Below the pieces are notes generated by a model that was not told the origin of the DNA, did no database searches, and saw only the letters and a program-made list of their open reading frames with translations. A stretch of 64,000 bases of DNA from Deltaproteobacteria bacterium. Its GTDB lineage: Bacteria; Desulfobacterota; Binatia; Binatales; Binataceae. A program made the translations under genes and the position numbers. The DNA is taken from NCBI GenBank assembly GCA_021780225.1, contig JAJXZF010000078.1, positions 1 to 64,000 on the forward strand, written 5' to 3'. Below, piece after piece: positions 53,102 to 63,541 of the stretch. The first letter of the stretch is position 1; each line of letters starts with the position of its first letter.

Positions 53102-54319
53102 ATGCAGGGCGTGAAGACGATTCGCTCGCTCCGACTCACTAATATGCTCTCCTACGGGAGCAATGGGTCTTCCATTGATTTGGAACCTCTGAATATACTT
53201 ATTGGACCCAACGCTTCTGGCAAATCGAATCTGATCGAGGCAATTAGTCTGCTAGCCGCAACGCCTAAAGATCTCCTTGCGCCGTTTCGCGAGGGAGGAG
53301 GCGTAGCAGAATGGATTTGGAAGGGAAAGCGACAAGCTCGCGCGGAGTTGGAAGCAATTCTCGACTATCCGCAAGGTGTGCAGGCGCTCCGCTATCGGCT
53401 CGCGTTCACGGTCGCCCAGTCACGATTGGAGATCGTCGATGAAGCTATCGAAAATGAACACCCGAACAAACCCGGAGCGGCCAAGCCATACTTTTTCTAT
53501 GCTTTTCAAGCCGGGCACCCAGCCATTAATGTTCGCACAAAGCTCGATCAGCAGCCGGGAACGAATGGCGGTCGCACGGAGCGCATGCTGAGGAGAGAAG
53601 ATATCAGTCCTGAACAGTCAATTCTCTCTCAGCGAAAGGATGTGGATCTTTATCCGGAGATAACCTATGTAGGAACTCAATTCAGCCAGATCCGATTCTA
53701 TCGAGAATGGAACCTAGGGCGTTACACCGCTTCTCGAATGCCACAAAAAACCGATCTTCCTGAAGATTTCCTCCTGGAGGATTTCAGCAATCTTGGTCTC
53801 GTGCTGAATGACCTCCAAAACCGCGCCGACACGAAGCGAAAGCTGCTGGAGAAACTGCAATTATTTTATGAAGGGGTCGAGGACGTCACGACGAAGGTGC
53901 AGGGCGGCACAGTGCAGGTCTTTTTCCATGAAAAAGGCTTGAAGACCCCGGTACCCGCCACACGGCTGTCTGATGGAACCCTGCGATACCTCAGCTTGCT
54001 GCTTATACTTTGTCATCCTTCACCACCACCGCTGGTGTGCATCGAAGAGCCAGAATTAGGCCTCCACCCTGACGTGCTCCCAGTGCTGGCTGATTTATTT
54101 GTCGAAGCCGCCGCTCGCGCGCAATTTATAGTCACTACCCACTCTGAATCGCTGATATCCGCGCTTTCCGACGTTCCTGACGCGGTGATTGTTTGCGAGC
54201 GTGGCGCAGACGGAACCACGCTCAAACGTCTCGAACCTCCGAAACTCACCGAATGGCTGGACCGGTACAAGCTCGGCGAGCTGTGGCGCATGGGCGAGAT
54301 CGGGGGCACTCGATGGTGA
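53102..54319 (+). CDS. AAA/ABC-type ATPase (OLD/RecF-like, AAA_21)
   Basis: A 405-residue ABC-type ATPase of the OLD/RecF/SMC class without long coiled coils. Motifs: Walker A LIGPNASGKSNLIEA (residues 34-48), ABC signature ATRLSDGTLRYLSL near 290, Walker B VCIEEPELGLHPDVLP near 315 and H-loop TTHSESL near 345. Base composition is more AT-rich than surrounding metabolic genes. The last seven bases overlap the following DUF4276 gene, a layout typical of two-protein systems where an ATPase senses and a nuclease-like effector acts (OLD, PARIS and relatives). Confidence 0.9.
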   Translation: MQGVKTIRSLRLTNMLSYGSNGSSIDLEPLNILIGPNASGKSNLIEAISLLAATPKDLLAPFREGGGVAEWIWKGKRQARAELEAILDYPQGVQALRYRLAFTVAQSRLEIVDEAIENEHPNKPGAAKPYFFYAFQAGHPAINVRTKLDQQPGTNGGRTERMLRREDISPEQSILSQRKDVDLYPEITYVGTQFSQIRFYREWNLGRYTASRMPQKTDLPEDFLLEDFSNLGLVLNDLQNRADTKRKLLEKLQLFYEGVEDVTTKVQGGTVQVFFHEKGLKTPVPATRLSDGTLRYLSLLLILCHPSPPPLVCIEEPELGLHPDVLPVLADLFVEAAARAQFIVTTHSESLISALSDVPDAVIVCERGADGTTLKRLEPPKLTEWLDRYKLGELWRMGEIGGTRW

Positions 54320-54933
54320 GTGAGATTCGGATATACATTGAAGGCGGTGGCGACGGCAGTGAATCCAAAGCGGCCATTCGCGAGGGCTTCGGCCAATTCT
54401 TCGACCCTCTACGACAACTTGCACGCGAGCGACGTATCCGATGGCGAGTGATTGCATGTGGTGGTCGCAGCGCAGCTTTTGATAATTTCAAGACAGCTCT
54501 GAAGGATCACTCAAGCGCATTCAACGTCCTTTTGGTGGATTCCGAAGGTCCGGTCTCAAAAACTCCTTGGAACCATTTGCTTGCTCGAGATGGATGGGCA
54601 ATACCTGCTGTCGGCGATGAACAGTGCCATCTCATGGTCCAATCCGTTGAGGCGTGGCTTGTGGTCGATCGCGCCGCTCTCCGGAATTTCTATGGCGCCG
54701 AGTTTATTGAGAGCGCGCTCCCAACCCATGCCAGTATCGAGACCATCCCCACAAAAAACCTCGGATCCGCCCTGGAACGAGCCACTCGCAACACATCCAA
54801 GGGACCGTACCATAAGATTCGCCATTGTTCGGCTTTGCTCAAAAGACTTGATCATACCGTTGTCCGCTCCGGAGCGTCCTATTGCGAACGACTCTTCACG
54901 ACGCTCGCCGCACAGATGGGGACGACTATCTGA
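54313..54933 (+). CDS. DUF4276 family protein (TOPRIM-like?)
   Basis: A 206-residue DUF4276 protein starting at 54313 inside the ATPase gene end (stop 54317-54319). Conserved parts: IYIEGGGDGSESK at the N-terminus (E10, D14), NVLLVDSEGP (D76, E78), HLMVQSVEAWLVVDRA and CSALLKRLDHTV near the end. The E then D-x-(D/E) order on predicted strands resembles the acidic residues of TOPRIM nuclease domains, which is my inference. DUF4276 genes are usually paired with such ATPases. The likely role is effector nuclease of a defence pair. Confidence 0.82.
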   Translation: MVSEIRIYIEGGGDGSESKAAIREGFGQFFDPLRQLARERRIRWRVIACGGRSAAFDNFKTALKDHSSAFNVLLVDSEGPVSKTPWNHLLARDGWAIPAVGDEQCHLMVQSVEAWLVVDRAALRNFYGAEFIESALPTHASIETIPTKNLGSALERATRNTSKGPYHKIRHCSALLKRLDHTVVRSGASYCERLFTTLAAQMGTTI

Positions 54934-55310: not shown

Positions 55311-55592
55311 ATGCCGACCCGCAACGTCAGCCTGACCGCCGAGCAGGACGCCTTTGTCGAAAAGGTCGTGAAAGCCGGCGAATACCAGAACGCCAGCGAA
55401 GCGATTCGCGACGCGCTGCGCGTGCTTCAGCAAAAACGGCGCGAAGACGCGCTCAAGCTCAAGGCTCTGCGCGCGCAGGTCAAGGCCGGCCTTGAGGCGC
55501 TCGAACGCGGCGATTTCGTGGAAGTCGCCGACGCGGATCTCGATTCATATCTTGAAACTTTAACCGCAACGCACACCCGAAACGCATCCTGA
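55311..55592 (+). CDS. parD: ParD-like antitoxin (ribbon-helix-helix)
   Basis: A 93-residue antitoxin. The N-terminus is a ribbon-helix-helix DNA-binding domain (TRNVSLTAEQDAFVEKVVKAGEYQNASEAIRDALRVLQ), the C-terminus a charged helix that should bind the toxin (LKALRAQVKAGLEALERGDFVEV). It is followed after 4 bases by the toxin gene. It is expected to neutralise ParE and to repress the shared promoter through the palindrome upstream. Confidence 0.9.
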   Translation: MPTRNVSLTAEQDAFVEKVVKAGEYQNASEAIRDALRVLQQKRREDALKLKALRAQVKAGLEALERGDFVEVADADLDSYLETLTATHTRNAS

Positions 55593-55596
55593 TCGC

Positions 55597-55962
55597 ATGG
55601 CGCGATTTCGGCTGTCGCGGCCAGCGCGAGCGGATATCGCCAACATTCTGACCGCCAGCGAAGAGCGCTGGGGAACCACGGGACGGCTTCGTTATGCCGC
55701 GCTACTAGCCGGAGCGATTCGTTTCATCGCCTCCCATCCCGAAGACGCGACGACACGCGCGCGCCGAGAGTTGGCCGCGGGTCTTCGCAGCCTCCATCTG
55801 CGCCACGCACGGCGCTGGGGTCCAAGACCCGTCGTGGAAAGGCCCGTGCACGTTCTCTACTACCGCGCGGTTGCCACGGATTTGATCGAGATAGTGCGCG
55901 TGCTCCACGAGCGGATGGAGCCCGGCCGCCATTTAGGCGTAGACCCACCGGACGAGCGGTGA
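55597..55962 (+). CDS. parE: ParE/RelE-family toxin
   Basis: A 121-residue toxin of the ParE group. Family pattern: RFRLSRPARADIANILTASEERWG, then LRYAALLAGAIRFIASHPE, VHVLYYRAVATDLIEIVRVLHERME. ParE proteins typically inhibit DNA gyrase. Slightly longer than usual because of a C-terminal tail. It forms a type II toxin-antitoxin pair with the upstream gene. No other mobile-element gene borders it. Confidence 0.88.
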   Translation: MARFRLSRPARADIANILTASEERWGTTGRLRYAALLAGAIRFIASHPEDATTRARRELAAGLRSLHLRHARRWGPRPVVERPVHVLYYRAVATDLIEIVRVLHERMEPGRHLGVDPPDER

Positions 55963-56066: not shown

Positions 56067-56873
56067 ATGCCAGCTTTGCTGTTCGAGGTCCGCGACCATA
56101 TCGCCTATCTCACCGTCAACCGTCCCGAAGTCCATAACGCGCTCAATCCCGAAGTGATGGTGCGGATGGCCGAGGCGTGGCGGCGCGTCAACGAGGACGA
56201 CGAAATCCGCGCCGCGATCGTCACCGGCGCGGGCGACAAATCCTTCTCGGCCGGAGCCGACCTCGGCAAGCTGATCCCGCTCTTCACCGGCGCGCGCAAG
56301 CCCGAGGACGAGTGGGACCAGAAGCTCTTCGCCGACCGCAGGCTCGGCGACCAGGCGCTGCTGCGCAAATTCGACGTCGACAAGCCGATTATCGCCGCCG
56401 TCAACGGCTCCTGTATCGCCGGAGGGTTCGAGCTGATGCAGGCGTGCGATCTGCGCGTGGTCGCCGAACACGCGCGCTTCGGCCTGCAAGAGGTCAAATG
56501 GGCGATCGTGCCGGCCGGCGGTTCTCTCGTCCGGCTGCAGCGGCAGATGCCCTACTGCAAGGCGATGGAAATCCTGCTGACCGGAAATCTGATCGACGCG
56601 GCCGAGGCCTACCGGCTGGGACTGGTTAACTACGTCATGCCGGCCGGCCAGGTGATGGCGAAGGCGGAGGAGCTGGCCGCGACGATCGCGGCCAACGGCC
56701 CGCTCGCCGTCAAGGCGATCAAGCAGGGCGTGCGCCGCGCCGTCGGCCATCCCTACGAGGAAGGCTTCTCGATCGAAAACGAGGTCACGCGCCCGGTGAT
56801 GAAATCCCGCGACGCGCAGGAAGGGCCGCGCGCCTTCATGGAAAAGCGCAAACCGCATTACCAGGGCCGCTGA
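56067..56873 (+). CDS. enoyl-CoA hydratase/isomerase (crotonase) family
   Basis: A 268-residue intact crotonase. It starts MPALLFEVRDHIAYLTVNRPEVHNALN; oxyanion and CoA region FSAGADLGKL; AAVNGSCIAGGFELMQACDLR with the first catalytic Glu; and FGLQEVKWAIVPAGGS with the second. Both Glu residues of a hydratase are kept. It ends GPRAFMEKRKPHYQGR. It adds water to 2-enoyl-CoA in acyl-CoA breakdown. A close paralogue lies broken at 60423-60792. A rhodanese gene follows by 38 bases. Confidence 0.93.
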   Translation: MPALLFEVRDHIAYLTVNRPEVHNALNPEVMVRMAEAWRRVNEDDEIRAAIVTGAGDKSFSAGADLGKLIPLFTGARKPEDEWDQKLFADRRLGDQALLRKFDVDKPIIAAVNGSCIAGGFELMQACDLRVVAEHARFGLQEVKWAIVPAGGSLVRLQRQMPYCKAMEILLTGNLIDAAEAYRLGLVNYVMPAGQVMAKAEELAATIAANGPLAVKAIKQGVRRAVGHPYEEGFSIENEVTRPVMKSRDAQEGPRAFMEKRKPHYQGR

Positions 56874-57533: not shown

Positions 57534-58355
57534 TCAAAAAAGCCAGCCGATCGTGCCTTTTTCGAACGTGCCGTGCTGATTCGTCGTGATTCCGAAGCCG
57601 ACGCCAAAATTGAACTCAAGTTGCGGCATCAGGTAGAGGTTGACGGCGGGAACGATAAACTGCTGCTGTTCCGGCCAGATATACGGTTCTTTGACCGCTC
57701 CTATATCGCCGAAATATTCCAACGACGGCTCAAACCACTTGGTCAGCAGATAGCTTATCTGACCCATCGGCTCCAATGAGATTCCCGCCCGCGTTCCCGG
57801 CCCGCTGAACTGCTTTTCGAAGGAGAAATTGGCTATCGCGGTCAAACGCCGCCAATGAGTTTCGACAATCGGCATGAACTCGATATTGAACGGATCCGGT
57901 ACGGCCGCGCGGCGCATGTACTGCAGCTCGATATTCGCGCCGAATTGGACCGGCCAATCCTCGGTCTGCGGGATGCCGAAATGGACCTTGCTGCGTGCGC
58001 CCGCGTATTCCCATTTGCCCGGCTCGAACATCGCGGTGCAGAGATATTGCCCCACTTCCAGATACGGCAGCAGGCCGTAGGTTAATTCGTAGGTGGCGTG
58101 CGTTTGATAGAGCGGGAGATTTGATTTGGACGCTTCCCCGACCGCCGTGCTGATGTAATTGGAGTGCAATTCGGCCATAAATTGGCCTTCCGGCACGGTA
58201 TCGATCGAATAAATCTGAATTTCGTAGAAGTCGGTCGCATTTGCGACGCGCGGCATAACCAGAACCGCCAGCAGCAAACAAACGCCAAGCGCCAGAACGG
58301 AAAATCGATCCCGGCCAGCGGCGCCGGATCGGCGCCCTGCGGCGCCTCGCGCCAC
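57534..58355 (-). CDS. outer-membrane beta-barrel protein
   Basis: A 273-residue secreted protein. A GTG at 58355, four bases after the TetR stop and preceded by AGG, is the likeliest start; the frame is open a little further. The signal core is LALGVCLLLAVLVMPRVANA|TDF. The mature chain has many alternating aromatic beta strands (FYEIQIYSIDTV, ATYELTYGLLPYLEVGQY, GANIELQYMRR) and a final strand ending FEKGTIGWLF with the terminal Phe typical of outer-membrane proteins. Its placement with TetR and diiron genes suggests a channel for a hydrophobic substrate. Confidence 0.75.
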   Translation of the reverse strand: MARGAAGRRSGAAGRDRFSVLALGVCLLLAVLVMPRVANATDFYEIQIYSIDTVPEGQFMAELHSNYISTAVGEASKSNLPLYQTHATYELTYGLLPYLEVGQYLCTAMFEPGKWEYAGARSKVHFGIPQTEDWPVQFGANIELQYMRRAAVPDPFNIEFMPIVETHWRRLTAIANFSFEKQFSGPGTRAGISLEPMGQISYLLTKWFEPSLEYFGDIGAVKEPYIWPEQQQFIVPAVNLYLMPQLEFNFGVGFGITTNQHGTFEKGTIGWLF

Positions 58356-58359
58356 GGCG

Positions 58360-58956
58360 TCAGGCCTGCAATGGTCTCCGGAGGATACCGACAAAATGGC
58401 GCGCTACAACTTCCGGCGAATCGCCGCCTGAATGATACCAGACCTGCGACCAGTTTAGCGCACCGAACAAAAGCAGGCGAAGATAATGACGATCGACATC
58501 GGGCGGCAGCGGCAAATCCTCGATCAAACGCCGGAACCGCATCTCGTAATCCTGGCGAAGCTCGCGAATCCGTCCCGCAAAGGCGCCGGCCTCTTGCGGA
58601 CGCGTGCGAATCATCGCCTGCGAATAATCGCGATGGGCGATCAGCGCGCGCAAATGCGCCGCGCAGGCAGCCTCCAGCCGCTTCCACGGCTCGGCGGCGT
58701 TCGCAACGGCCACATCGACAGCGTCGGCGATTCGGCGCTCGCCCTCCTCATAGACGGCCAGCAGCATCTCTTCCTTGGATTCGAAGTGATAATAAATCGA
58801 ACCCGAGAGCATCCCGACCGTCTTTGCGATATCCCGCATCGACGTGGCGTGAAAGCCGCGTTCACTGAACAGTTGCGCCGCCGCGTCAAGCAGTTGGGCG
58901 CGGCGATTGTCTTGCCGCGGCGCGCGCAGCGGCGCTGGCGAGGAACTCACGGGCAT
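58360..58956 (-). CDS. TetR family transcriptional regulator
   Basis: A 198-residue repressor. The N-terminal helix-turn-helix is standard: RRAQLLDAAAQLFSERGFHATSMRDIAKTVGMLSGSIYYHF, then a ligand-binding helical domain (YEEGERRIADAVDVAVANA onward). Only 52 bases separate it from the upstream diiron gene and 4 bases from the outer-membrane gene, so it probably controls this three-gene unit, likely through the palindrome-like site near 60134-60147. The inducer is unknown, possibly an acyl-CoA. Confidence 0.9.
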   Translation of the reverse strand: MPVSSSPAPLRAPRQDNRRAQLLDAAAQLFSERGFHATSMRDIAKTVGMLSGSIYYHFESKEEMLLAVYEEGERRIADAVDVAVANAAEPWKRLEAACAAHLRALIAHRDYSQAMIRTRPQEAGAFAGRIRELRQDYEMRFRRLIEDLPLPPDVDRHYLRLLLFGALNWSQVWYHSGGDSPEVVARHFVGILRRPLQA

Positions 58957-59008
58957 CGGTCAACCTTCTTCCTTCCGGCCGGCCGATCCCGCGAGATTGC
59001 GCTCGCGA

Positions 59009-60022
59009 TCAGACGCCGGGCTGCGACTCCAGAGTGGCCGCTCGTCCATCAATTGTGGGGTCGATTCCCAATTTCCGCAAGTTCTCCGCCGTGCGCGGAG
59101 TCATCAGGCCGACCTTCTTCATATTCGATACGACCTGCGTGTACATCTCGCGCCGGAAAATCTGGCGGAAAAATATGTAATCGTTGCTCTTGGCGCTCTC
59201 GACCCGGATTTTCTGAATCTGATCGATTTCGCCCTTGCTGAAACCAACCTTCTCGAAGGCTTCGCGCGGGAACTGGCCGCGCAACACCAGCCGGCACGCT
59301 TCCGCGACGAAATCCTCAAGCTCGCTCATCTCCGACGGCGACAGGCTCGCGACCATGTCGGGCAGTCCGATCACCGAAAAACCCATGTGCCGGGATTCGT
59401 CCTGCAGCACCCGCTTGCTGATCGATTGCAGCACCGGATCCTGCGCCGTTTCCGCCAGCATCCGGAACAGCCCCACCGCGAAGGTCTCGGCAATCAACTG
59501 CAACCCCGCGGTCTTGAGGAACCATTTGCCCTGTCCGAGCAGATAATCGAACAGATGCTTCAAGTTGTGGTTCATCGGATAGACGCGGCCGCCGCATTTA
59601 TCGAGCAGATAGCGGCTCAGGACCTCGGCATGCCGCGCTTCGTCGACAACCTGGGTCGATTGGAAAAACTTGGCGTCGTTGGTCGGCACCATATCGACCA
59701 ACTGGCTGCACGCGAGCATCGCGCCCTCTTCGCCATGAAGGAGCTGCGAAATCCGCCAGCAGGAAAATTCCACGTTCAGCTCGCGGCGGGTTTTTTCGTC
59801 CAGCTTGTTCCAAAACTCGCTGCCGTAGCCGTCGATAAGGCCGTCGGCGAAAATTCCCTTGTCCAGATCCACCGGCTGCGACCAATCGATATCGCGCGAA
59901 GCGTTCCACTGGTCGCGCTTCGCGTTTTCGTAAAGCCGCCGCATATCGGGGGCAAGCACGCCGTACTCCCGCTGATAGAGAGTCTCGTATTCGCTTTGAA
60001 TGCGATGTTCAGTTTCAGTCAT
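59009..60022 (-). CDS. ferritin-like diiron protein (oxygenase-like)
   Basis: A 337-residue helical protein with a complete ferritin-type diiron set: Glu98/99 in LLHGEEGAML, E128xxH131 in VVDEARHAEVL, Glu179 in QLIAETFAVGLF, and E209xxH212 in LQDESRHMGFS. This is the pattern of R2-like, AurF-like and acyl-acting diiron oxygenases. It has no signal peptide. It starts a three-gene unit with TetR and an outer-membrane protein and has a sigma70-type promoter at 60099-60128. Probable role: oxygenation of a hydrophobic substrate. The precise subfamily is unclear to me. Confidence 0.82.
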   Translation of the reverse strand: MTETEHRIQSEYETLYQREYGVLAPDMRRLYENAKRDQWNASRDIDWSQPVDLDKGIFADGLIDGYGSEFWNKLDEKTRRELNVEFSCWRISQLLHGEEGAMLACSQLVDMVPTNDAKFFQSTQVVDEARHAEVLSRYLLDKCGGRVYPMNHNLKHLFDYLLGQGKWFLKTAGLQLIAETFAVGLFRMLAETAQDPVLQSISKRVLQDESRHMGFSVIGLPDMVASLSPSEMSELEDFVAEACRLVLRGQFPREAFEKVGFSKGEIDQIQKIRVESAKSNDYIFFRQIFRREMYTQVVSNMKKVGLMTPRTAENLRKLGIDPTIDGRAATLESQPGV

Positions 60023-60098
60023 TGAGGCCTCCGCGAAATCTGGTCGTCACCCACCGGGTTGGCGCGTTTTGCAAACGTCAATACCAAACGCTTGCTTG

Positions 60099-60128
60099 CT
60101 TATACTGAAACATCGTGCTTCCTGTCAA
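60099..60128 (-). promoter_or_regulatory. sigma70-like promoter of the diiron operon
   Basis: On the reverse strand TTGACA (60128-60123), an 18-base spacer and TATAAG (60104-60099) lie about 77 bases upstream of the diiron start codon. Confidence 0.65.
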
Positions 60129-60133
60129 GCGGC

Positions 60134-60147
60134 TGAACGCTCATTCA
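60134..60147. promoter_or_regulatory. candidate TetR/FadR-type operator
   Basis: TGAACGCTCATTCA is a near-palindrome (TGAA...TTCA) directly upstream of the -35 box. It recalls the TGAATGA..TCATTCA sites of TetR-family acyl-CoA regulators. Confidence 0.4.
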
Positions 60148-60422: not shown

Positions 60423-60792
60423 ATGCCCGCTCCGCTGTTCGAAATCCGCAATCACATCGCTTATCTCACGCTCAATCGGCCCGAGGTTCACAACACGATC
60501 GACCCCGAATTGATAGTTCAATTGGCCGAAGCCTGGCGACGCCTGGCGGCGAACGATTCCGGCCGCGCAAGTGATGGCGAAGGCCGAAGAATTGGCGGAA
60601 AAGATCGCCGCCAACGGCCCACTCGCCGTGCGCGCAATCAAGCAAGGCGTCGGAAGAGTATCGGGACGCCCGCTGGAGGATGGCTTCAAGATTGAGAGCG
60701 AGCTCGCGCGCGGAGTGTTTTCCTCGGATGACGCCAGGAAAGGCCCGCGCGCCTTTGTCGAAAAGCGCAAGCCCGACTTCAGGGGAAAGTGA
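60423..60792 (+). pseudogene. crotonase remnant with large internal deletion
   Basis: The first 47 codons (MPAPLFEIRNHIAYLTLNRP...AEAWRRLAANDSG) match the N-terminus of the intact crotonase at 56067, and the last 70 (VMAKAEELAEKIAANGPLAVRAIK...GPRAFVEKRKPDFRGK) match its C-terminus, but about 150 residues between them, including both catalytic Glu residues, are missing. The two halves are also in different frames; the junction is near 60560-60570. The end overlaps the next broken gene (GTGA). Confidence 0.88.
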
Positions 60793-61582
60793 GCGGAAAA
60801 CCCATCGTGAACTATCAAGCCATACTGTACGAGCGGCACGGCGCCGTCGCCAAAATCATCACCAACCGTCCACGTTACAAAAACGCCCAATCGCGCGTGA
60901 TGATCGAGGAGATGGATCATGCGTTCGCCGCGGCCAACGCCGACGAAGACGTGCGCGTGATCGTGCTCGGCGCGGCCGGCGAGAGGTTCTCGTCGGGACA
61001 CGATATCGGCACCCCCGAGGAAAAAGAGGACATGCGGCGCCGCCCATTTCCAAAAGGGGTGCGCGGCGAGTACGCGCTCTCGCGATATCTGTTTCTCGAC
61101 GCCACTTTGCGCTGGCGCAACCTGGACAACCGACGATCGCGCAAGTTCAGGGAATGTGCATCTTTGGCGGCTGGATGTTCGCCGCCGCGATGGACCTGAT
61201 CGTCGCCGCCGACGACGCCATGTTTTTGCCGGCGCTGATGCAGTATTTTTCGATACCGTGGGATCTGCCGCTGCGCAAAGCCAAGGAGGCCGTGTTCCGG
61301 GACCGCTTTATCGGCGCCGAAGAGGCGTGCCGGTTCGGATTCGTCAACTACGTGGTTCCACGCGATCGCCTCGAAGAAGAAACCATGGCGCTCGCCAACG
61401 AGATTGCGGAAAACGATCCCTTCACGCTCAGAATGGCGAAGTTGGCGATGAACTCCGCGCAGGACGAAATGGGCTTCAGCAACTCGATCCGCAACGCTCA
61501 TTCGCAATATTCGCAATATATGGTTCACGGCCTGGACAGCTACACGAAAGACAAGCTGGAAGGCCGAGGTTTCCGAAGGTGA
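60789..61582 (+). pseudogene. crotonase gene with single-base frameshift
   Basis: The start is a GTG overlapping the previous stop, with AGGGG just upstream. The N-terminal half (IVNYQAILYERHGAVAKIITNRP, GERFSSGHDIGTPEEK, FLDATLRWRNLD) is in one frame; after 61129 the family sequence continues one frame over (PTIAQVQGMCIFGGWMFAAAMDLIVAADDA, FVNYVVPRDRLEEE). One base is missing in the GAC-AA-CCG region, where GACAAGCCG is expected. The second part ends at 61582, while a third frame would add MPGVTQALKTRGK to 61623, so a second shift is possible. Originally a roughly 265-residue acyl-CoA enzyme. Confidence 0.82.
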
Positions 61583-62539: not shown

Positions 62540-62702
62540 GCGGCGCTTTTTGGAAATCAACCGGCCTCATTCAGAGCGCCGGTTCCCGACCGGATCGCGA
62601 AGTCACATACCGTTGAAGCTGGCTCAGGCAGCGTTAATGCGGCTATGAATTTGGGGCGCAGAGCCGCGACGTTCCAAACCATACGGCTCCGACGGAGAAG
62701 CA

Positions 62703-63541
62703 ATGGCATACGAAAATTACAAAGTCGTGAGCGTGGAGGTTCGCGGAAAAGTCGCCTACGCGACGATCAACAATCCGCCGATCAATCTGATCACCGGCCG
62801 CTGCTGGACGACCTCGTCCGCTTGTCGAGCGAACTCGAAGCCGACAAGGATTTGCTCGTGGTCGTGCTGAGAAGCGCCAACCCGGATTTCTTCATCGCGC
62901 ACTTCGACGTCGCCGCGATTCTGGAATTTCCGATCGAAAAACCCGCGCGCCACGAAGATTACGCCAACGCGTTCTATCACGACATGTGCGAGCGCTTCCG
63001 CCTGATGGACAAGATCACGATCGCGCAGATCGAGGGCCGCGCGGGCGGCGGCGGATCGGAACTGGCGATGTCGTTCGATATGCGTTTCGGGGTGCGCGGC
63101 AAAACGATCATCAATCAGATGGAGGCGCCGCTCTGAATCCTTCCCGGCGGCACGGGAACACAGCGCCTGCCGCGATTGATCGGCAGAAACCGCGCGGTCG
63201 AGGTTATCCTCGGCGGAATTGATTTGGACGCGGAAACCGCGGAGCGCTGGGGTTATTTGAACCGCGTCTTCGACGCCGGGCAGATCGCGCCTTATGTCGA
63301 ATGGCTGGCGCAACGGGTCGCGTCGTTTCCGGTGGAAGCCGTGCGGCTGACGAAACAGGCGATCAATTCGGCCGAAAAACCGTTGGCCGAAGGGCTCCGA
63401 GACGAAAGTTATCTGTTCCAGCAACTCGTGCGCACCGAGAGCGGACGGCGCAATATGCGCAAGTTCCTCGAAATCGGCGGTCAGACGCGCGAAGGCGAGC
63501 TCAAGATCGGCGAGTTGAACGGGTTGCTCGGAAAATTTTGA
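62703..63541 (+). pseudogene. crotonase gene with frameshift and nonsense codon
   Basis: GGAGAAG precedes ATG 62703. MAYENYKVVSVEVRGKVAYATINNPPINLIT is followed near 62799 by a one-base loss; RPLLDDLVRLSSELEADKDLLVV continues in the next frame through AQIEGRAGGGGSELAMSFDMR. At 63134-63136 an in-frame TGA interrupts EAPL-stop-ILPGGTGTQRLPRL, where Gly (GGA) is expected. The remainder, VEVILGGIDLDAETAERWGYLNRVF to GLLGKF, is intact. Two lesions of different kinds argue for a true pseudogene. Confidence 0.85.

Follow-up and report, generated by a model that had tools for sequence, protein, structure and literature searches.

A candidate TetR-repressed operon for an AurF/R2-class diiron protein and an outer-membrane barrel in a probable member of the Binatota

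The 64,000-nucleotide stretch of DNA analysed here (the window), part of contig 36 of a 3.8 Mb genome whose source is probably a member of the uncultured phylum Binatota, carries three minus-strand open reading frames (ORFs) that encode, in the order of transcription, a diiron oxygenase-like protein, a TetR-family regulator, and a beta-barrel protein (Table 1). An initial annotation, made from the DNA letters, had placed these genes together on one strand behind a TTGACA-18-TATAAG promoter, and both the ORF positions, which agree with its own, and our reading of the promoter confirm this arrangement. The pattern TTGACA-N16-18-TATAA has a single occurrence in the window and none in 100 shuffled versions; a generic promoter scan did not list the pair because it requires T at position 6 of the second hexamer. 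The -35 box reads TTGACA in the window and in the related loci L003–L009 and L011, and TTTACA in L019 (L numbers denote loci and G numbers genomes throughout).

Table 1. Features of the diiron operon and of related loci.
Feature	Position	Strand	Basis or remark
Outer-membrane barrel: 12-stranded beta-barrel protein (predicted), signal peptide, 286 aa	57534-58394	-	AlphaFold2; mature part about 57537-58235
Local TetR-family regulator, 198 aa	58360-58956	-	TetR_N (PF00440) 72.8 bits, TetR_C_24 58.7 bits
Diiron oxygenase-like protein, AurF/R2 class, 337 aa	59009-60022	-	PF11583, ligand motif, AlphaFold2 fold
Shine-Dalgarno-like GGAGG of the diiron gene	60028-60032	-	Read from sequence
Candidate operator of the local TetR, AAGCAAGCGTTTG	60085-60097	-	Starts 1 base after the -10 box; co-occurrence with TetR
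-10 box TATAAG	60099-60104	-	Read from sequence; 18-base spacer to -35
-35 box TTGACA	60123-60128	-	Read from sequence; unique in the window together with its -10
Near-palindrome TGAACGCTCATTCA	60134-60147		5 bases upstream of -35; possible operator of a second, distant TetR
Barrel gene before MoxR-DUF58 operon	L151-L153, L155-L157, L210, L212-L217, L220-L224		18/23 loci

The first gene product is matched by the Pfam family PF11583 (AurF) at 52.2 bits against a cut-off of 29.6 (51.8 bits in the genome search), the sole Pfam family above its cut-off. The motif EX28DEXXH occurs twice in the protein, as E98-X28-D127E128xxH131 and E179-X28-D208E209xxH212; a motif of this kind, EX28-37DEXXH, is given for AzoC, beside AurF and CmlI, in passages of PMC6783550. 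The full diiron ligand set described in the initial annotation is borne out, as E98, E128, H131, E179, E209, and H212 are all present; across an alignment of 74 rows, from which five of the 78 species-scan loci were excluded for length, stops, or cut ends (L042, L045, L066, L077, and L080), E98 is kept in 73 rows, with one gap, and the other five ligands in every row. The AzoC model, as described in the same paper, has a third histidine ligand, His-225, four residues before the last glutamate, Glu-229. The equivalent position 205 is isoleucine in 49 and valine in 25 of the 74 rows, so that the third histidine ligand of AurF-type N-oxygenases is absent from the window protein and from every aligned homologue. 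The metal site should accordingly have six ligands, and the failure of the third-histidine test counts against an N-oxygenase identity.

The AlphaFold2 model of the diiron protein (predicted local distance difference test, pLDDT, 89.2) finds its best Foldseek matches in AurF (template-modelling score 0.63/0.68) and CmlI (0.61/0.70). VIA-align returns CmlI at Z 22.3 (root-mean-square deviation, rmsd, 2.8 over 266 residues) and AurF at Z 22.0 (rmsd 3.4, 284 residues), followed by R2lox (Z 21.5), ribonucleotide reductase R2 (Z 21.3), and aldehyde-deformylating oxygenase (ADO; Z 21.1). Because these folds are tied (listed Z 20.7–22.3), structure alone does not place the enzyme; the structure-based placement called for in the initial annotation yields AurF and CmlI as top folds, but with R2lox, R2, and ADO level with them. 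A profile search of PDB sequences with the diiron family puts a designed helix bundle first (E 2.7e-9), then ADO 5uxg (E 8.6e-9), R2lox (E 1.8e-6), and AurF (E 0.096), and phmmer with the single protein yields, from the PDB, nothing beyond peptides that are designed or models, a single natural chain of ferritin-like type (5n5e), and weak ADO matches. PHROGs has no match for the diiron protein or for the barrel protein.

The likeness to AurF, CmlI, and AzoC thus lies in the family profile, the doubled motif, and the best folds by both structural methods, whereas the missing third histidine, an identity of 13–17%, and a gene setting that, from the gene list, is no recognisable natural-product cluster set the window protein apart. 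With R2lox and R2 it shares the fold, query residues 26–62 aligning to the N-terminal part of R2lox in the profile search, as well as the R2 set of four glutamates and two histidines. It differs from them in that the R2lox NCBIfam equivalog models stay far under their cut-offs (28 bits against 194, and 13.5 against 315) and in the residue four after the first histidine, the position of the R2 radical tyrosine: this residue is a leucine, L135, in the window protein, which has no tyrosine there (leucine in 40, phenylalanine in 18, tyrosine in 15, and valine in 1 of the 74 rows). The ADOs supply the best natural PDB sequence match and a Z of about 21, but they are about 220 residues long, against 337, and the alignment is partial. 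As judged from sequence and model, the protein is a dimetal protein of the AurF/R2 class and very likely an oxygenase or oxidase; it does not resemble a storage ferritin, an outcome that would have spoken against the initial annotation.

The regulator encoded by the second gene, with a TetR_N score of 72.8 bits against a cut-off of 24, belongs to the TetR family. In 10 of the 78 loci found in the species-genome scan (L003–L011 and L019), an orthologue is the next gene downstream after the diiron gene. When 10 loci picked from further genomes are added, a TetR domain is found within about 0.6 kb in 45 of the 88 loci holding a diiron homologue, downstream on the same strand in 10, upstream on the same strand in 29, and upstream and divergent in 6. 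The TetR profile was built from three TetR neighbours of diiron genes. In the 600,412 bp lying more than 1.5 kb from a diiron gene it finds 5 TetR domains, a background that is a lower bound because the profile was seeded from TetRs adjoining the diiron gene; an independent count with Pfam TetR_N finds only 8 matches in the whole 3.8 Mb window genome. On a quick tree of 74 rows, 70 of them labelled (the contig-limited rows L017, L018, L034, and L035 carry no arrangement label), the four arrangement states (TetR downstream, upstream on the same strand, upstream and divergent, or none) require 8 changes, compared with a shuffled mean of 31.8, so the association between TetR and diiron genes was made or broken several times. 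The link by gene order is real but is not a general rule, and on this link the initial annotation is supported.

The sequence AAGCAAGCGTTTG, which begins one base after the -10 box, follows the presence of this regulator among related loci. With up to 2 mismatches, it is found in 10 of 10 sequences that have both an orthologous TetR and readable upstream DNA (the window, L003–L009, L011, and L019); L010 has the TetR but only 11 usable upstream bases and stands outside this count. With up to 3 mismatches, it is absent from all nine close relatives that lack the TetR (L012–L018, L020, and L045), the available DNA being limited to 435 bases on the downstream side in L017 and to 278 on the upstream side in L018, and the 14 more distant loci tested hold a single 3-mismatch match, in L058, at another position. 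An imperfect palindrome, AARCAARCGYTTGYTT, is seen in the relatives, with 6–7 of 8 pairs in L006–L009, L011, and L019, and the TetR recognition region, MLSGSIYYHF, is identical in the window and in the eight loci examined (L006 and L007 are outside this comparison). On a tree of 16 rows, TetR presence changes twice, and the operator follows in both of these independent pairs. The exact AAGCAAGCGTTTG is present in a single copy in the genome; within the window, a search allowing up to 2 mismatches finds 2 copies, about what chance would give (mean of 1.58 in shuffles), so the case for the operator rests on footprinting and not on rarity. A repressor bound one base after the -10 box would block RNA polymerase, and AAGCAAGCGTTTG, not the palindrome put forward in the initial annotation, is likely the operator of the local TetR, as judged from these sequence comparisons. 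Among the matches listed in the literature on TetR operators, the string TGAACGTTCATTC was not met. A wider regulon of the local TetR was considered and is not claimed: five one-mismatch copies lie elsewhere, and 6 forward matches compare with 4 for the reversed-pattern control. The arrangement is reminiscent of self-regulated TetR–oxygenase operons, for example those of lipid-responsive repressors of the Bm3R1 type; the likeness lies in a repressor gene within the operon and a candidate operator over the promoter, and the difference in the sequence of the candidate operator and in the enzyme, which is a diiron protein and not a P450.

The near-palindrome that the initial annotation had noticed beside the -35 box is present, as TGAACGCTCATTCA at 60134-60147, and has the look of a TetR operator, but its assignment to the local TetR is not supported: the site is missing in L006–L009, L011, and L019, all of which keep the regulator. 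The window, L003, and L004 share the form TGAATGAGCGTTCA, whose centre is changed to TGAATGGCCGTTCA in L005; the palindrome, at up to 3 mismatches, occurs in none of the other upstream regions tested, and the DNA farther upstream is much less conserved. Matches to TGAAYGNNCRTTCA are found at three places in the 3.8 Mb genome, and matches to the reversed pattern at none. The three are the diiron promoter, a promoter on contig 37 that precedes a TetR gene, and a site on contig 39 between two genes. The contig-37 TetR gene has a divergent flavin monooxygenase gene (FMO-like Pfam match) on one side and, on the other, a gene whose product of 205 residues looks ferritin-like but has no Pfam match. 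Its site, TGAACGTTCATTCA, is located between TTGACG and a presumed -10 box and is one mismatch away from that at the diiron promoter of the window; across the genus it is identical in G083 and reads TGAACATTCATTCA in G065 and G009. A TetR of the contig-37 type and the diiron-promoter site occur together in G000, G065, and G009; of the two, G105 holds the site alone and G083 the TetR alone. No more than a fragment of this TetR is present in G059, whose diiron promoter lacks the site, and in G143 both this TetR and a diiron match are missing. These sequences would fit a second regulator at the diiron promoter, but the evidence is mixed and the suggestion a weak one.

On contig 37 (L190:830-7743), the cluster comprises a luciferase-like monooxygenase, the flavin monooxygenase, the TetR, the ferritin-like protein, and two DUF455 proteins; the flavin monooxygenase has, by its fingerprint, the look of a Baeyer-Villiger enzyme. 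In G109 (L154:1207-5637), a barrel gene adjoins an 80% identical relative of this flavin monooxygenase and a luciferase-like monooxygenase, and in G059 (L197:490-1514) a distant diiron homologue (27% identity, E 1e-13) has a site TGAACGCGCGTTCA some hundreds of bases upstream.

The ORF of the third gene has a TTG start overlapping the TetR stop, and its true start is uncertain; the protein ends in ...GWLF, and a barrel of 12 strands is predicted with a pLDDT of 93.4 for the mature part, in line with the beta-barrel protein with terminal phenylalanine of the initial annotation. Its best folds are FapF (Z 20.2; rmsd 3.3, 213 residues) and the COG4313 channel 4rl8 (Z 20.1; rmsd 3.4, 220 residues), with KdgM (Z 19.1), FadL (Z 13.8), and the copper protein PcoB (Z 12.2) below them. 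No Pfam family matches the protein at E up to 1, including Phenol_MetA_deg, the Pfam model of the COG4313 family, and membership in COG4313 is therefore not established. With the COG4313 channels (Pput2725, SphA, and TcpY) and FapF it shares the 12-stranded barrel and a conserved N-terminal segment before strand 1; model residues from 5 onward align to 4rl8 from residue 1 onward. It differs in having 9% identity, in the lack of a Pfam match, and in that its relatives adjoin MoxR-DUF58 or cupredoxin/haem/FTR1 genes. The third protein is thus predicted, from its model, to be a COG4313/FapF-like outer-membrane barrel. Passages of PMC4493636 implicate COG4313 proteins in the uptake of hydrophobic molecules and describe Pput2725 as a 12-stranded barrel constricted by its N-terminus.

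The barrel joined the operon only recently, in the window genome and its three nearest relatives: among the 78 species-scan loci, it stands in the diiron operon in L003–L005 only and is absent from the others. Outside the diiron operon, its subfamily (23 of 24 listed places fetched) directly precedes a membrane protein–MoxR–DUF58 operon in 18 of 23 loci. G000, G065, G009, and G105 keep the DUF58 gene, and the sole near copy of the subfamily in these genomes adjoins the diiron gene, so the barrel seems to have moved to the diiron operon. A second barrel subfamily was examined at 25 of about 41 places (L158, L167–L186, and L147–L150, with L158 and L149 giving the queries); of these 25 loci, 24 have a cupredoxin gene next to the barrel gene, 15 a gene for a haem-binding-domain protein, and 6 one for an FTR1 iron permease. 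Pfam finds no match on the scanned members of this subfamily and, among their neighbours, tallies 13 Cupredoxin_1, 9 Haem_bd, and 2 FTR1 (150 of 187 ORFs; L147, L150, L158, and L167 excluded). In L147:4061-7226 and L148:5062-8114, which belong to another family, the order is cupredoxin–FTR1–barrel–diiron gene, with 18–19 bases between the barrel and diiron genes by mechanical ORF ends; a diiron-gene remnant of 40 residues lies beside the barrel gene in L149, and none in L150. A barrel of this superfamily has probably met a diiron gene twice.

We propose, with a probability of roughly 0.55, that the locus is a substrate-inducible oxidation operon, repressed by its own TetR at AAGCAAGCGTTTG, in which a diiron enzyme oxidises a hydrophobic compound and to which a channel has been added. 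The TetR from the second gene would bind AAGCAAGCGTTTG over the transcription start, as the footprinting suggests, and repress the operon until a small organic ligand, probably the oxygenase substrate or a related acyl or lipid compound by analogy with other TetR regulators, releases it. The first gene would then supply a soluble AurF/R2-type enzyme, its fold predicted and its six-residue metal site assigned by conservation, that may activate O2 and hydroxylate or otherwise oxidise the hydrophobic organic compound, and the 12-stranded outer-membrane channel predicted for the third gene, whose addition is seen by synteny, would plausibly admit this compound. As TGAACGCTCATTCA most resembles the contig-37 TetR promoter site, it may be a second site, in which case the operon could have two inputs. 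A hydrocarbon or lipid is a reasonable guess for the substrate. The recurrence of barrel and diiron gene in L147 and L148 counts in favour of this proposal.

Several observations weigh against it. The fold scores do not separate an oxygenase from R2 or ADO, and the ORF list of the operon holds no gene that reads as an electron-transfer partner. The candidate operator pairs at only 5 of 8 positions in the window itself, and a sign test on its co-occurrence with the TetR gives p 0.5 and cannot reach significance, as there are only 2 independent TetR/operator changes. The diiron enzyme does not need a TetR, since no TetR adjoins it in 19 of 23 loci titled Rokubacteria, in 5 of 5 titled Chloroflexi or Dehalococcoidia, and in 8 close Binatota-type loci (L012–L018 and L020); the lower-bound nature of the TetR background is a further caution. 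The confinement of the barrel to four closely related operons and the usual place of its subfamily before MoxR-DUF58 genes tell in the same direction.

In the initial annotation, the local TetR would answer to acyl-CoAs through TGAACGCTCATTCA, and the operon would be an uptake-plus-oxidation module for a hydrocarbon or lipid that feeds the nearby crotonases. We regard this as very unlikely. The conservation of the palindrome in the window, L003, L004, and, with its changed centre, L005 speaks for it, as does a resemblance of TGAACGCTCATTCA to known lipid-responsive TetR operators, and the predicted fold of the barrel matches a channel family implicated in hydrophobic uptake (PMC4493636); alkane degradation is predicted for Binatota in parts of PMC8262859. 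Nevertheless, the site is absent from six loci that keep the TetR, in four of which (L008, L009, L011, and L019) the recognition helix is unchanged, and the relatives of the barrel occur mostly in metal/redox or MoxR-DUF58 settings. As to the crotonases, one nearby gene is intact, an enoyl-CoA hydratase-like gene at 56067-56873 that adjoins a rhodanese gene, a pair also found downstream in L003–L008 (cut by the contig end in L005); but it lies on the opposite, plus strand, and the pieces at 60423-60790 and 60789-61582 are broken, matching crotonase parts in different frames or with the middle missing. L009, L010, L011, and L019 moreover keep the diiron gene and TetR without an orthologue of 56067-56873 nearby, L019 having only a 32% identical crotonase, upstream. 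The crotonases do not belong to the diiron operon. Another broken crotonase-like piece in the window lies at 62645-63541, and L003 and L005 have longer matching frames for some of these pieces.

Three further explanations concern the inputs, the barrel, and the enzyme. Under dual control, the local TetR would act at 60085-60097 and the contig-37 TetR at 60134-60147, drawing the diiron enzyme into a wider oxidation regulon; this is conceivable, albeit doubtful. In its favour are the copy TGAACGTTCATTCA at the promoter of the contig-37 TetR gene, which G065, G009, and G083 retain as TGAACRTTCATTCA, the three genomes that hold both TetR and site, and the number of TGAAYGNNCRTTCA places, three, in the window genome. 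Against it, G105 and G083 each have one partner without the other, and we estimate that about 0.5 to 1 TGAAYGNNCRTTCA place per genome is expected by chance, the reversed TGAAYGNNCRTTCA control giving 0 in six of the seven genus genomes and 1 in G009. The third TGAAYGNNCRTTCA place, on contig 39, lies between genes read, without a family scan, as a major facilitator superfamily transporter and an amidohydrolase and is conserved in G105 and G143, suggesting that several regulators may use the motif. That the barrel serves iron or copper supply, provisioning the diiron enzyme instead of admitting its substrate, is unlikely: the cupredoxin, haem-binding-domain, and FTR1 neighbours of the second subfamily and the gene order in L147 and L148 suggest such a role, but the window barrel belongs to the other subfamily, its fold match to PcoB (Z 12.2) falls below that to the COG4313 channel (Z 20.1), and no metal gene is seen in the ORF list of the window operon. 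A diiron protein that is no oxygenase at all, but an R2-like radical protein, a desaturase-like enzyme, or an inactive or storage ferritin, appears rather improbable. In its favour, the fold scores set R2 (Z up to 21.3) and R2lox (Z up to 21.5) level with AurF and CmlI (Z 21.3–22.3), and the PDB profile search ranks ADO and R2lox ahead of AurF; against this stand the low R2lox NCBIfam scores, the leucine at the radical position, and AurF as the sole Pfam family above cut-off.

Beyond the window, a diiron homologue (E up to 0.001) is present in 104 of 145 genomes searched in the class of the window, several of them with 9–12 matches (10–12 each in G006, G029, G045, G069, and G081), and the 78 loci of the species-genome scan carry Binatota-type, Rokubacteria, Chloroflexi, Myxococcota, Methylomirabilota, and unclassified Deltaproteobacteria or Proteobacteria titles. 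The probable placement of the source organism in Binatota is drawn from its nearest relatives by diiron protein, metagenome-assembled genomes whose titles read bacterium, Deltaproteobacteria bacterium, Candidatus Binataceae, or Proteobacteria. Clusters of neighbours at the Rokubacteria loci gave no functional clue; in 14 loci (6 of 29 Rokubacteria/Chloroflexi and 8 of 29 distant ones) the gene picking had not caught the diiron ORF. Alkane oxidation in Binatota is credited, in parts of PMC8262859, to CuMMO, PrmABC, AlkB, CYP153, and LadA, and the words 'diiron' and 'ferritin' have 0 occurrences in the main text of that paper; judged by titles and abstract openings among the matches listed, no paper on the diiron–TetR gene pair was found.

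As AurF/R2-class diiron proteins perform very different chemistries (N-oxidation, hydroxylation, radical generation, and deformylation), a six-ligand branch that is widespread in little-cultured phyla is of some consequence. Among 8 loci fetched from two genomes with up to 12 homologues, a TetR adjoins the diiron gene in 5. A tentative generalisation, with the odds somewhat against it, is that six-ligand AurF-like enzymes form a large class, as yet unstudied, across Binatota, Myxococcota, Rokubacteria, and Chloroflexi, many copies having acquired a TetR sensor of their own, so that these genomes would hold repertoires of sensor-plus-oxygenase cassettes for many organic substrates, to which the closest kin of the window added a channel and perhaps a second input. 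The sensors offer a route to the substrates, since many copies are accompanied by a TetR of their own and a candidate operator can be mapped in at least one clade. Of the new findings, those of most use are the six-ligand branch of AurF-like proteins with its coupling to TetR and the candidate operator mapped here.

Two other gene pairs of note lie in the window. At 53102-54933, an AAA ATPase gene (AAA_21) is followed by a gene for a DUF4276 protein, a candidate anti-phage defence pair by its PADLOC matches (HEC-01A, 598 bits; HEC-01B, 248 bits), and a ParD/ParE-type toxin–antitoxin pair (PF03693 and PF05016) is located at 55311-55962.

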